Shown here: positions 29,503-57,813 of the stretch, one piece after another
How the letters are laid out: every line of letters starts with the position of its first letter
Numbering within the stretch: the first letter of the stretch is position 1
NCBI GenBank assembly: GCA_020248265.1
Contig: JADCHX010000024.1
Location: 124,001-188,000, forward strand
Length of the DNA: 64,000 bases
Direction: 5' to 3'
From: Rhodocyclaceae bacterium
GTDB lineage: Bacteria; Pseudomonadota; Gammaproteobacteria; Burkholderiales; CAIKXV01
Position numbers and translations under genes: made by a program
The notes under the pieces: model-generated
What the model was told of the DNA's origin: nothing
Database searches by the model: none
The model's input: only the letters and a program-made list of their open reading frames with translations

Positions 29503-30516
29503 CTACTGGACCTTCGCGCCCGAGGCCTTCACCACCTTGCCCCAGAGTTCGATCTCGGACCGGATGTAGGCCGCGAACTCCGCCGGCGTGCTGTCGAGCA
29601 CGTCCATGCCCTGTGCCGCCAGCTTCTGCCGGTTGCCCGGGTCCTGCAGCACCTTGCGCATCTCGGCGTTGAGCAGGTTCACCACCGGCTCGGGCGTGCC
29701 GCCGGTGGCGGAGAACCCGAACCAGGCGGCGATCGCGAAGCCGGGTACGCCGCTCTCGGCGATCGTCGGCAGATCCGGCAGCGACGGGATGCGCCTGGCG
29801 TTGGTGACGCCCAGCGTACGCAGCTTGCCCGACTGCACGATGCCCGAGACCACCGACACGCTGGCGAACGAGGCGATGGTCTCGCCCGAGAGCACCGCGT
29901 TGATCGACAGCGGCGTGCTCTTGTAGGCGATGTGCGTCAGCCTGGTTCCGGTGAGCATGCCGAACAGTTCGCCGGCCATGTGCTGCGACGTACCGGTACC
30001 ACCCGACGAAAAGGTGAGCTCGCCCGGCTTCTGCCGCGCCAGCGCGATGAAATCTTTAACCGTCTTCACCGGCAGCGACGGATGCACGACCAGCATGTTC
30101 GGGCTGGACGCGGCCAGGATGATCGGCGCGAAGTCCTTGATCGGGTCGAAGTTCAGCTTGCCGTACAGCGTCGGATTGATGCCGTGCGTGCTGATCGTGG
30201 TGATGAACAGCGTGTAGCCGTCGGGTGCAGCACGCGCCGCCAGTTCCGCTGCGACGTTGCCGCCGGCACCCGGACGGTTGTCGACGACCACCTGCTGGCC
30301 GAGCGAACGCGACAGGCCGTCGGCCATCAGCCGGGACAGGTTGTCGCCGGCCGAACCCGGCCCGAGCGTGACCAGGAGGCGGATCGGCTTGGTCGGGTAC
30401 TTCGGTGCCTGGGCCCATGCACCGTCGGCCGCCAGCAGCGCGGCCGGAAGGATCACCGACGCGATCACCGAAGCGATCACCGCACCGTTGGCATCACGGG
30501 TCGCGGCACGATTCAT
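29503..30516 (-). CDS. Bug/TctC family periplasmic receptor
   Basis: A 337-residue receptor whose ATG overlaps the RidA-like stop codon in an ATGA, so translation is probably coupled. Signal core VIASVIASVILPAALLAA, cleavage after AWAQA. First binding loop PIRLLVTLGPGSAGDNLSR differs from the usual PFPPGG, as in the next gene downstream; later motifs GQQVVVDNRPGAGGN and PDGYTLFITT are normal. Two Bug genes lie back to back here (80-base gap), perhaps by duplication, though they have diverged. Confidence 0.92.
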   Translation of the reverse strand: MNRAATRDANGAVIASVIASVILPAALLAADGAWAQAPKYPTKPIRLLVTLGPGSAGDNLSRLMADGLSRSLGQQVVVDNRPGAGGNVAAELAARAAPDGYTLFITTISTHGINPTLYGKLNFDPIKDFAPIILAASSPNMLVVHPSLPVKTVKDFIALARQKPGELTFSSGGTGTSQHMAGELFGMLTGTRLTHIAYKSTPLSINAVLSGETIASFASVSVVSGIVQSGKLRTLGVTNARRIPSLPDLPTIAESGVPGFAIAAWFGFSATGGTPEPVVNLLNAEMRKVLQDPGNRQKLAAQGMDVLDSTPAEFAAYIRSEIELWGKVVKASGAKVQ

Positions 30517-32030: not shown

Positions 32031-33101
32031 CTATCGCTTCGGAAGGCCGAGCCGAGCCGCCATCCAGTCGGCGGTCTGCGTACGGTAGCGGTACGCGCGG
32101 TTGTTCACCACGTGGTTGCCATCCTCGACCATCAGCAGTTCGACCGGACCACCCGCCTCGCGGGCAAGCCGCTCCGCGTCCTGCCACGGGATGATACGGT
32201 CCTGCTTGCCGGCGACGATGAACAATGGGCAAGTGATCTTCGACGCCAGCCCCTCGAGCGACAGCGTATGCGCCGCCTTGCGGCCTTCCTCGGGCGTCGC
32301 GCACTTGGCACGCACCTGGAACGCACGACGGGTGAGTTCCGGTAGCCCGTCCCAGTTGGCGCCCATGTTGTACGGGCCGGACAGCGCGATGCAGGCCTTC
32401 GCCCGTTTCTCGAAAGCCGCAGCCCGCGGTGCATAGTAACCGCCGAGCGAGACGCCCCACAGGGCGGCACGGCCATGGTCGATGTCGCTGCGCGTCTCGA
32501 GCCAGTCGAACACCGCCTTCACCGGAACCTCGTAGTCGCCGCGGATCGGGAACTCGTATTCGGCCTCGCCCTGCCCCGGACCATCGAACGCCAGCGTCGC
32601 GATGCCGCGCTCGAGGAAGTTGCGCTCGTACGCGTCCATTTCTTCTTTGCAGGAATCGAGGCCCATGCACATTACCAGCACCGGTGGGCGCACGCTGCCG
32701 GCCGGCTTGCGCAGTTCACCCTTGAGCGTGGTACCCATGTAGGGGATCTCGACCCGCTCGCCGGGCGGATCGATCAACGGCAGCGCCTTCGCGCGCGATG
32801 CCACCGCCTTCATGTGCGCCCACTTCATCTGATCGAGGTCATCGACGAACACGAACTTCGCGAAGTGATGGCAGACGGCGGCGCGCGAGAAGTGCTCACC
32901 GGCCGACAGACGGTGCCCGGCGGCGAGATCGGTCTCGCCGAGCGCATCGTGCACGTCGCCGCGGGCGACCCACGCCTTGCACCAGTCGCTCCAGGAGGCG
33001 AGGCTGCCGGTGACGTCCTGGAAGTCAGTCAGTGGAATGCCATTGGCGATGAGGCGCGGCGCCCAGTGCGCCAGTGCGGACTGCAGTTGTGAATCGGCCA
33101 T
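32031..33101 (-). CDS. Alpha/beta hydrolase, 2,6-dihydroxypseudooxynicotine hydrolase-like (first gene of the run)
   Basis: A 356-residue paralogue of the protein at 23997-25070, with the same helical lid (about 1-105) and catalytic residues Ser218 (GVSLGGYYAPR), Asp301 (GKQDRII) and His330 (DGNHVVNN). The two share long identical stretches such as the CMGLDS and DGPGQGEAEYE segments, but differ around the lid and the SGxxx loop after the nucleophile, so they may act on different but related substrates or on successive steps. It is the first gene of the 21-kb minus-strand run and faces the GntR regulator gene across a 284-base intergenic region with inverted half-sites. Confidence 0.87.
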   Translation of the reverse strand: MADSQLQSALAHWAPRLIANGIPLTDFQDVTGSLASWSDWCKAWVARGDVHDALGETDLAAGHRLSAGEHFSRAAVCHHFAKFVFVDDLDQMKWAHMKAVASRAKALPLIDPPGERVEIPYMGTTLKGELRKPAGSVRPPVLVMCMGLDSCKEEMDAYERNFLERGIATLAFDGPGQGEAEYEFPIRGDYEVPVKAVFDWLETRSDIDHGRAALWGVSLGGYYAPRAAAFEKRAKACIALSGPYNMGANWDGLPELTRRAFQVRAKCATPEEGRKAAHTLSLEGLASKITCPLFIVAGKQDRIIPWQDAERLAREAGGPVELLMVEDGNHVVNNRAYRYRTQTADWMAARLGLPKR

Positions 33102-33227
33102 CGTGTCGGTCTCCTCTCCGGCGGGCCCGGGATGTGTCGGCGACTGTCCAGGGACGGGAGCGCGCCGACGCTCGCAGGGGCGGGGAATGCTAGCTGCGCC
33201 CCTGACCGGACGTCAACCAGAAACAGG

Positions 33228-33252
33228 ATTGGTTCGATACTTATGCACCAAT
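33228..33252. promoter_or_regulatory. Candidate GntR operator 1: ATTGGT - 13 bases - ACCAAT
   Basis: Perfect inverted half-sites ATTGGT (33228-33233) and ACCAAT (33247-33252). They lie 127 bases before the alpha/beta hydrolase start and within an AT-richer patch that could hold that gene's promoter. FCD-type GntR regulators typically bind GGT/ACC-containing palindromes, and the same half-sites recur in operator 2. Confidence 0.45.
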
Positions 33253-33349
33253 TTTGCCCGAGCGGCCTGATGCAGACTACCTAGATGTCAGAGGGCCTTT
33301 TTTGTTGCGCCGCACCACCTTTACCGCATTGCAGGATACGCCCGCATTG

Positions 33350-33369
33350 AACCAATCGACGCATTGGTT
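33350..33369. promoter_or_regulatory. Candidate GntR operator 2 upstream of the regulator gene
   Basis: Perfect 7-base inverted repeat AACCAAT - 6 bases - ATTGGTT, ending 17 bases before the GntR start codon. It overlaps a possible promoter (TTGAAC at 33347-33352, TAGTTT at 33369-33374, 16-base spacer), which would fit autorepression. The half-site is the same as in operator 1 but in opposite order. Confidence 0.5.
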
Positions 33370-33385
33370 TAGTTTTGGCAGGGCC

Positions 33386-34066
33386 ATGGCATCCCGCATC
33401 CGGAACCGAGCCTCGACGCGTGAATTGCGCACGTTCGTGCTCGCGCAGGCGGGCACTGCGGACGGCCCCGGCAGCAAACTGCCGACCGAGCGCGAGTTCG
33501 CGCTGCGCTTCGCCCTGCCGCGCAACGCGGTCCGGCGGACGCTGGCCGACCTGGAGGCCGAAGGCCGCATTCACCGCGAGGTCGGGCGCGGCACCTTCAT
33601 CGCGGCAGTGCCGGCGCCGGCACCGACCGACCTGCCGACCGTCGCCCGCGCAAGCCCGGGAGAACTGATGGATGCGCGGCTGCGCATCGAGCCCGCCGCG
33701 GTCGAACTGATCGTGGTCAACGCCACCCCGGCCGACTACGAACGCATGGACCATTGCCTCGACCGAGCCGAAGCGGCGGTGACGCTCGGCGAGTTCGAAC
33801 TGTGGGATGCCGCGCTCCACCAGGCGATGGCCGCAGCGGCCCACAACGCATTGATCGCCGGCATATTCGAACTGTTCCACGCTGCGCGACAGCAGACGGA
33901 GTTCGGCAAGCTGCGCAACCGGATCGTCACCGAGACACTGAGACTGGAGTACCAGCGTCAGCATCGCGCCATCGTCGCTGCGCTCAAGGCGCGCGATGCC
34001 GCCGCTGCGCGCGCGGCGGTCACCGCCCACCTCACCTGCGCGCACCGGAACCTGTTCGAGGGCTGA
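33386..34066 (+). CDS. GntR family transcriptional regulator, FadR/FCD subfamily
   Basis: A 226-residue DNA-binding regulator. The N-terminal winged helix (about 4-72) contains GSKLPTEREFALRFALPRNAVRRTL and a wing with GRGTFI; the all-helical FCD domain (about 85-222) contains the metal/ligand residues in DARLRIEPAAVELIV, WDAALHQAM and the His in YQRQHRAIVAAL. FCD regulators sense carboxylates such as lactate, gluconate or aromatic acids. It is divergent from the catabolic run and is the obvious candidate to control it. The start at 33386 is supported by domain boundaries; the ribosome site is weak. Confidence 0.9.
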   Translation: MASRIRNRASTRELRTFVLAQAGTADGPGSKLPTEREFALRFALPRNAVRRTLADLEAEGRIHREVGRGTFIAAVPAPAPTDLPTVARASPGELMDARLRIEPAAVELIVVNATPADYERMDHCLDRAEAAVTLGEFELWDAALHQAMAAAAHNALIAGIFELFHAARQQTEFGKLRNRIVTETLRLEYQRQHRAIVAALKARDAAAARAAVTAHLTCAHRNLFEG

Positions 34067-56808: not shown

Positions 56809-57813
56809 TCAGGCGCGGCTGGCCAGTTGCTGCAATTGTCGGTAAAGCGTATCCGGGATGTCGACCCCTTCGGCACCTGCCCGGGCGCGCGCAGCGTAGC
56901 GGCGGTCGCCCGGCAGACGTACACCGGGGTCGGCCAGCATGGCAGCGATCAGTGCCTCGACGCGCTCGAAATACACCGCGCTGCCGGCCGTGGAGCCGGG
57001 ATCGATCGCAATCAGCGTATGGCCGATGCGGGGCTTGTTGCCGGGCTCGAAATACGAGTCGTTCTCGAAGGCCAGCGCCGCCCCGGTCAGCCCGCAACAC
57101 AGGAGCTCGACCATCATCGCGAGCATCGCACCTTTGGCGCCGCCGATCGCGAACAGACTGCCAGTGAGGGCGGCCTTCGCATCGGTGGTCGGGTTGCCGT
57201 CCTTGTCGACCGCCCAGCCCTCGGGGATCGGACGCCCTTCCTTCGCGGCGATCATGATCTTGCCGCGGGTCACTTCAGTCAGCGAAAGATCGATCAGCAC
57301 CGGCGGTTTCGCCGCGCGCGGAAACGCCGCCGCGATCGGATTGGTGCCGAACACCGGCCGGCGCCCGCCCCAGGCGTTGATCGCACCGGGGGAATTGGTC
57401 AGCGCCAGGCCGATCATGCCAGCCGCGGCGATCGGTTCGAGATGATAGACAGCGGCCCCGTAGTGGTGGCTGTTGGTCAACGCGACCAGAGAGATGCCGT
57501 GGCTGCGCGCGCGGGCGATCGCTTCACCGACGGCCATTTCGCAGGCTTCATAGGCGAGCCCGCCGCACACGTCGATCAGGCAACTGCCGCCGCGCTCATG
57601 GACGACCGCCGGTCGGGCGTTGCCGTCAACCCGCGCGGTCGCCAGGTGGTCGACGTACAGCGGGATGCGCGACACGCCATGCGTCGCGAGGTCATCGCGG
57701 TCTGCCGCGACCAGCGCGCGCGCGGTGGCTGCCGCCTGTGCCGGTGCCGCACCGGCCTTCACCAGCGTGGCGGCAGCCAGGTCGGTCAGTTGATCGAGGG
57801 CAATGCGGGGCAT
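56809..57813 (-). CDS. Ldh family (malate/L-sulfolactate dehydrogenase-type) oxidoreductase
   Basis: A 334-residue NAD(P)-dependent dehydrogenase of the type-2 malate/lactate dehydrogenase fold, which differs from the Rossmann fold. Motifs: DDLATHGVSRIPLYV near residue 40, the NSHHYGAAVYHLEPIA segment with the catalytic His near 115, and GTNPIAAAFP in the nucleotide site. It would reduce a 2-oxoacid or imine (relatives reduce oxaloacetate, 2,3-diketogulonate or delta-piperideine-2-carboxylate). It lies 34 bases upstream of the Fe-S subunit gene, so may be in the same operon. Confidence 0.93.
   Translation of the reverse strand: MPRIALDQLTDLAAATLVKAGAAPAQAAATARALVAADRDDLATHGVSRIPLYVDHLATARVDGNARPAVVHERGGSCLIDVCGGLAYEACEMAVGEAIARARSHGISLVALTNSHHYGAAVYHLEPIAAAGMIGLALTNSPGAINAWGGRRPVFGTNPIAAAFPRAAKPPVLIDLSLTEVTRGKIMIAAKEGRPIPEGWAVDKDGNPTTDAKAALTGSLFAIGGAKGAMLAMMVELLCCGLTGAALAFENDSYFEPGNKPRIGHTLIAIDPGSTAGSAVYFERVEALIAAMLADPGVRLPGDRRYAARARAGAEGVDIPDTLYRQLQQLASRA

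Follow-up and report, generated by a model that had tools for sequence, protein, structure and literature searches.

The window, by which we mean the whole stretch of 64,000 nucleotides that was analysed, carries a gene for a GntR/FCD regulator that diverges from an operon headed by an alpha/beta hydrolase. Four exact copies of the hexamer ATTGGT (ACCAAT in the opposite orientation) lie in the 284-bp intergenic region between them, forming two pairs that we refer to as site 1 and site 2. The features of the locus are as follows:

32031-33101, minus strand: alpha/beta hydrolase, first gene of the divergent operon (Pfam; PDB 2jbw, E 7e-49)
33187-33216, minus strand: candidate promoter of the hydrolase operon, TTGACG-18-TAGCAT (promoter scan)
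33228-33252: site 1, ATTGGT-N13-ACCAAT, converging, hexamer starts 19 apart, 5' of the hydrolase -35 box
33228-33233: hexamer 1, ATTGGT, exact match
33247-33252: hexamer 2, ACCAAT, exact match
33303-33317: third inverted repeat, TGNTGC-N3-GCANCA, conserved and genus-specific
33347-33371: site 2, TTGAACCAAT-N6-ATTGGTTTA, diverging, hexamer starts 12 apart, overlapping the predicted promoter of the regulator
33351-33356: hexamer 3, ACCAAT, exact match
33363-33368: hexamer 4, ATTGGT, exact match
33347-33375, plus strand: candidate promoter of the regulator, TTGAAC (33347-33352), 17-bp spacer, TAGTTT (33370-33375)
33386-34066, plus strand: GntR-superfamily regulator of the FadR/FCD type, 226 amino acids (Pfam PF00392 and PF07729, both over cut-off)

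The PDB sequence nearest to the hydrolase is that of 2,6-dihydroxypseudooxynicotine hydrolase (2jbw, 7e-49). The minus-strand run that it heads also encodes TctC-type receptors (two confirmed by Pfam, the third a candidate open reading frame at 29503-30516), a RidA-like protein, an aldo/keto reductase and an M24 peptidase.

The regulator and its predicted linker

The regulator combines an N-terminal GntR winged helix-turn-helix (HTH, residues 28-72) with a C-terminal FCD domain (residues 93-216), both matched by Pfam and joined by a linker at about residues 73-90, and its best fold matches are GntR/FCD regulators; it is thus a member of the FadR/FCD group of the GntR superfamily. None of the NCBIfam cut-offs for PdhR, LldR, UxuR, ExuR or NanR was reached, the best score being 71.6 bits for UxuR vs a cut-off of 442, and no close paralogue was found in the genome (next match, E 3e-4). 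Residues D141, H145, H193 and H215, which we take to be the FCD metal ligands (one Asp and three His), were invariant in 36/36 representative homologues (<80% identity). Glu35, Arg46 and Arg50 of the HTH were likewise invariant in 36/36, and correspond to DNA-contact residues of Atu1419 as given in excerpts of PMC7797058. Position 51 of the HTH was Arg or Lys in 33/34 subfamily members, and Ala in the outlying loci L031 and L032.

The AlphaFold2 model of the regulator had a mean pLDDT of 86.5, but residues 76-84 fell under 50, and a long helix was absent between residues 73 and 90. The length from wing to FCD domain ranged from 13 to 25 residues, with unconserved sequence, among the 30/34 members that could be parsed by script. 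The linker between the DNA-binding head and the FCD domain is variable and predicted to be disordered.

Half-sites and candidate promoters in the intergenic region

An earlier note on this DNA had listed the four hexamers with their gaps of 13 and 6, had judged so many copies improbable by chance, and had suggested that the second pair overlaps a possible promoter of the regulator. Hexamers and gaps proved exact, with the second pair reading AACCAAT-6-ATTGGTT at 33350-33369, and none of 20000 dinucleotide shuffles of the 284-bp region contained four or more hexamers (mean 0.11). Promoter-like sequence conserved in the genus does lie at the second pair, as described below. The hexamer was not enriched over the whole 64-kb window (10 observed vs 9.8 expected); the significance resides in clustering, not in the window-wide number.

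Each arrangement was also specific to this locus. ACCAAT-N4..9-ATTGGT and ATTGGT-N1..15-ACCAAT each occurred once in the 4.55-Mb genome, here, and searches with the site 1 and site 2 patterns allowing up to two or three mismatches returned this locus only, revealing no further targets of these patterns in the genome. Loose converging and diverging pairs likewise gave no match beyond it. Elsewhere in the window, a pair of hexamers spaced by 54 bp (at 57340 and 57394; 57340-57399) falls within a reading frame on the minus strand (56809-57813) that, judged by eye, looks like a malate/lactate dehydrogenase; we take this pair as chance.

We found orthologues of the regulator in 11/11 genomes examined from a single genus of the family, and the hydrolase adjoined the regulator gene in all 11, although it was cut by the contig end in L013. 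Loci L004-L013, whose genomes are also represented by L033-L042, entered this genus alignment only. A search of related genomes, which the earlier note had proposed as a check, thus found the half-sites in 11/11 with the same arrangement, so that the refuting outcome named there did not occur. Both halves of site 2 and its gap of 6 were exact in 11/11. At site 1, the right hexamer was exact in 11/11 and the left in 8/11, with one mismatch in the other three, while TGGTTC and ACCAAT were invariant throughout. The distance from site 1 to site 2, between hexamer starts, was 123 in 8/11 genomes; the remaining three had 119, 125 and 128. Invariant blocks of at least 3 bases in the 11-genome intergenic alignment fell in the hydrolase promoter elements, site 1, parts of the third repeat, site 2 and the ATG.

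The candidate promoter of the regulator was inferred from conservation, since the consensus promoter scan did not pick it up. Its -10 box, TAnnnT, was common to 11/11 genus genomes, and site 2 fills the spacer of TTGAAC-17-TAnnnT. Only 6-10 nt separate the -10 box from the ATG in all 11 genomes (33370-33388 in the window), so that the regulator mRNA is predicted to be leaderless or nearly so. On the other side, the candidate hydrolase promoter contained invariant blocks at 33211-33217, 33191-33194 and 33187-33188, and the centre of site 1 precedes the predicted start of the hydrolase by ~60 bp. The divergent members L011, L012 and L013 carried an extra ACCAAT against the hydrolase -35 box, a counterpart of which was not recognisable in the window within one mismatch.

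The third inverted repeat, TGNTGC-N3-GCANCA, was present in 11/11 genus regions vs 0/78 upstream regions of other homologues. The genome contained 12 such sites vs 6 for a reversed control. It is perhaps the site of another factor or regulator.

The hexamer accompanies the regulator subfamily

Homologues of the regulator were collected from an order search, in which 25/399 genomes had one at E 1e-20, and from a genome scan, in which 80 of 191 relatives were kept. The resulting 97 loci gave 89 distinct homologues, eight being dropped for a repeated coding sequence or <300 bp upstream. At least one exact hexamer was present upstream of 88/89 homologues, and at least two upstream of 86/89. Upstream of the 36 representatives, we counted 111 hexamers in 13608 bp vs 5.0 in mononucleotide shuffles, while the coding DNA of the same representatives held 3 in 22329 bp. 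The divergent neighbours varied among this hydrolase, NMT1 receptors, FAA hydrolases, TctB and TctC; since the divergent gene changes among homologues, the neighbour fails to explain the hexamer. Eight of the nine other FCD genes in the genome of the window had no hexamer in their 3.4-kb loci, and the ninth had a single copy located ~1.2 kb upstream of the FCD domain.

A class search added nine further loci, which were kept out of the counts. L113 was the same gene as L027; the pattern also held in L114 (diverging, 14 apart) and L115 (ACCAATTGGT); and the six most distant homologues, L116-L121, had no hexamer pair nearby. Going by record titles, the subfamily would be mainly betaproteobacterial. 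Four metagenome bins whose titles name Bordetella parapertussis or Chitinophaga pinensis (L035, L050, L056 and L072) also carry the regulator. L035 is 95% identical to the protein of the window, and the tree places L050 with a betaproteobacterial bin; the four titles look mislabelled. Plasmid records yielded three weak partial matches, covering 10-16% of the query, which were left out of the analysis.

Hexamer pairs are in helical phase at short range

We next considered the spacing of hexamers upstream of the homologues. Pairs were scored as in phase when within 1.5 bp of whole helical turns at an offset of 2.5, for which the jitter null had a mean of 36%. Among exact hexamers 8-75 bp apart in 34 non-redundant regions, 48/52 pairs were in phase (jitter p=2e-4), and this held for each orientation: direct, 19/20; diverging, 20/22; converging, 9/10. 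Direct repeats occurred at 10-11, 18, 20-21, 32, 41-43, 54 and 74 bp, diverging pairs at 12-13, 22-25, 33-36, 44-46 and 58 bp, and converging pairs at 16, 17, 19, 30, 38 and 70 bp. The combined periodogram had its maximum at 10.5 bp (15 trial periods). The converging class was thin, with 10 exact pairs, of which three came from a single lineage (19 bp) and another three from ACCAATTGGT regions (70 bp).

A first look at the data preceded our choice of period, distance range and reference phase, as well as the decision to leave out L031 and L032. For the reference phase we took the canonical converging operator, whose hexamers start 8 bp from each other, L032 being an example; an initial fit had by then given 2.63, so that this choice is not wholly independent of the data. 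We excluded L031 and L032 on seeing that they form a separate long branch of the tree, carry Ala at position 51 and have sites at canonical spacing. With an offset of 2.4 instead of 2.5, 44/52 pairs were in phase, or 47/55 when L031 and L032 were retained. With one member of the window's lineage, and the 10 ACCAATTGGT regions removed, the count was 23/24 pairs in 21 regions (p=2e-4).

Hexamers with one mismatch that lie close to an exact copy had played no part in finding the rule; 86/139 of these pairs were in phase against a null of 28%. This was strong for direct repeats (59/78) and weak for diverging (18/36) and converging (9/25) pairs, so that the claim of orientation freedom rests mainly on the exact hexamers. 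When up to one mismatch and distances within 48 bp were allowed, 32/34 regions held an in-phase pair vs 0.74 in shuffles. Permuted control words were in phase in 39% of cases when pooled, with single words reaching 61%, vs 75% for ATTGGT and about 29% expected from even phases; given this mild excess, general AT periodicity may supply part of the effect. Beyond short range, phase was not significant, either at 75-130 bp (p 0.44 in 36 regions, 0.18 in 12) or at 130-300 bp (p 0.35 in 36 regions, 0.06 in 12).

Ten of the 34 regions contained the overlapped hexamers ACCAATTGGT (L024, L025, L028, L029, L082, L087, L090, L095, L109 and L112). This sequence should be unable to seat two heads at once and needs a separate explanation; it may be a half-site readable from both directions. 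Its partners were 42 bp away in L024, 21 bp in L025 and 32 or 42 bp in L109. Nine of the 34 regions had neither an exact in-phase pair nor ACCAATTGGT, and in six of these nine we recognised ATTGGT-N4-TTTGGT direct repeats by eye.

FCD regulators usually bind a palindrome in which GT and AC are separated by a few bases. An exact canonical palindrome was absent from all 34 subfamily regions; exact converging hexamers 8-9 bp apart occurred only in the outlying L032, which reads ATTGGT-N2-ACCAAT. A scan for hidden canonical palindromes with up to two mismatches yielded look-alikes in 8/34 regions plus L031, a raw count with no shuffle baseline, and the idea was rejected, the one exact case being that of L032. 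We also considered ATTGGTTCAAT as a full pseudo-palindrome for one dimer. Its flanking TTCAA was only partly conserved, and its dyad would call for a phase of 5.5, which the diverging offset of ~2.5 does not fit; it was rejected as a general rule.

Discussion

Sequence comparison establishes the conservation of the hexamers, their association with the regulator, their phasing and the variability of the linker. We think it probable that the adjacent GntR/FCD regulator uses the hexamers as operator half-sites, through which it would control its own gene and the hydrolase operon by means of whole-turn spacing and tethered heads. Operators of the subfamily would then consist of ATTGGT half-sites spaced by whole turns and oriented in any of three ways (direct, diverging or converging), with no fixed palindrome. 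A dimer, or a pair of dimers, would sit on a single face of the DNA, each winged-helix head on its flexible linker taking any half-site within reach on that face. Such flexible tethers would fit a phase that extends to ~75 bp and none beyond.

At the locus itself, site 2 lies between the -35 and -10 boxes, so that its occupancy should block the promoter of the regulator, amounting to autorepression. Site 1 would modulate the hydrolase promoter, repression being likelier than activation, and this control would last until an acidic metabolite binds the FCD domain. Binding, the tethered heads, the direction of regulation and the class of ligand are what we infer.

The main alternative, possible though on balance doubtful, is cooperative binding by dimers, one per half-site, with neighbours on the same face touching and the tether irrelevant. 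Direct repeats one turn apart are common here, phase is still present at 40-75 bp, which is long for a single dimer, and NanR offers a precedent with one GGTATA repeat per dimer (excerpts of PMC8012715). In the same excerpts, however, the repeats of NanR follow each other within less than half a turn and longer spacers weaken binding, whereas one to five turns recur here. NanR cooperativity is also described in those excerpts as requiring a 32-residue N-terminal extension, for which the regulator (P0001) has little room, because the 27 residues preceding its Pfam match stand for the first 19 profile positions. Nor is it obvious that cooperative arrays would tolerate three orientations.

The earlier note had also raised the possibility of looping between the two pairs. 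A tetramer like that of Atu1419 would bridge site 1 and site 2 and repress both promoters, which we consider improbable. Separate sites do occur at both ends of the intergenic region in 11/11 genus genomes, 9/11 of the distances between them are by arithmetic within 1.5 bp of phase, and the Atu1419 tetramer has palindromes 190 bp apart (excerpts of PMC7797058). Against this, the same arithmetic puts two genus members (119 and 128; 2/11) ~4.5 bp out of phase, phase is not significant anywhere from 75 to 300 bp, and L048, L029 and L030 are among the representatives with a single cluster of exact hexamers. Since long-range phase is missing and some members of the genus are out of phase, phase-locked looping is not a shared requirement, and helical phase at 75-300 bp led us to reject it as a general one. 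The half-sites listed in the earlier note are real, conserved and tied to the GntR gene; the looping it suggested between the pairs is not borne out; a flexible bridge between site 1 and site 2 is possible.

It is very unlikely that the hexamers belong to another regulator and that the GntR gene is a passenger. The link of hexamer to regulator does come from comparing sequences, but the hexamer tracks the GntR subfamily across changing neighbours, the same word serves as half-site for PdhR, an FCD regulator (AATTGGTnnnACCAATT, excerpts of PMC7660256), and the outlying L032 carries the same words at canonical spacing. Chance, or a general AT periodicity of promoters, is scarcely credible: permuted words are mildly in excess (39% pooled vs about 29%), but the hexamers number 111 vs 5, are conserved in 11/11 genomes and are in phase in 48/52 pairs.

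Our preferred reading, tethered heads on phased half-sites, can be set beside known systems. CytR, of the LacI family, is described in excerpts of PMC3454398 (citing Jorgensen 1998) as accepting direct as well as inverted half-sites, with a relaxed spacing of whole turns, and as having a flexible linker. According to the same excerpts, two- or three-turn spacers are possible experimentally but had yet to be observed in nature. CytR has a weak motif and works jointly with CRP. The regulator studied here resembles CytR in that its half-sites stand at whole-turn spacings in more than one orientation (48/52 pairs), and differs in that about one to five turns recur in genomes. The protein itself is GntR/FCD, from a family unrelated to that of CytR, and does not have the LacI-type HTH and periplasmic-binding-like core. 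The best reading of the sequences would therefore be a local regulator with tethered heads that works in a CytR-like way within the GntR/FCD family.

Within that family, a fixed palindrome is usual but not defining, NanR being a known exception. UxuR recognises an operator of the same palindromic type as PdhR and LldR. The PdhR/LldR type has one palindrome with a 2-3 bp gap and the half-site ATTGGT/ACCAAT (excerpts of PMC7660256). The regulator shares the half-site word and the domain order with PdhR, LldR and UxuR, yet their 2-3 bp-gap palindrome is exact only in L032, with two-mismatch look-alikes in 8/34 regions. NanR, for its part, uses a (GGTATA)3 operator with repeats less than half a turn apart and needs tight spacing (excerpts of PMC8012715). 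It is likewise an FCD regulator with repeated hexamers in place of a palindrome, but whole-turn spacing and varied orientation set the present operators apart from a NanR-type repeat. Atu1419, a VanR-type FCD tetramer, has a fixed 10-bp palindrome for which looping was proposed (excerpts of PMC7797058); it resembles our regulator in FCD fold (PDB 6z74), in having two operators in one promoter region and in placing one of these between the -10 and -35 boxes of its own gene, and differs in that its palindrome is fixed and of another sequence. DhdR, a fold match of the regulator, also has a fixed palindrome in the excerpted text of PMC8651671. Finally, Suvorova 2015 described extra boxes 7-12 nt, or about one turn, from the centre of GntR sites (excerpts of PMC4494728). 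Those boxes are a weak addition to a canonical palindrome in these excerpts, whereas here the phased boxes seem to be the operator itself.

We put at roughly even the chance that the whole GntR/FCD subfamily has exchanged the palindrome for a one-face rule, with any orientation, one to about five turns and disordered tethers. Because L031 and L032 have Ala51 where 33/34 members have Arg or Lys, the operator switch may trace to a few residues plus the linker, and these two loci are a possible contrast pair for the change of rule.

Among the open-licence PMC papers listed by our searches, we found no title or abstract opening on this subfamily or on the spacing rule. What appears to be new is a short-range phase rule common to a subfamily and looser than the usual fixed FCD operators. 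Prediction of operators from palindromes, as is usual for GntR/FCD regulators, would overlook this subfamily. If the rule is true, the solution used by CytR was arrived at independently in another family, and the many homologues, with one to five turns and three orientations, would provide a natural operator series for the reach of tethered heads. Operators would then also become predictable for a group of catabolic operons with unassigned substrates.
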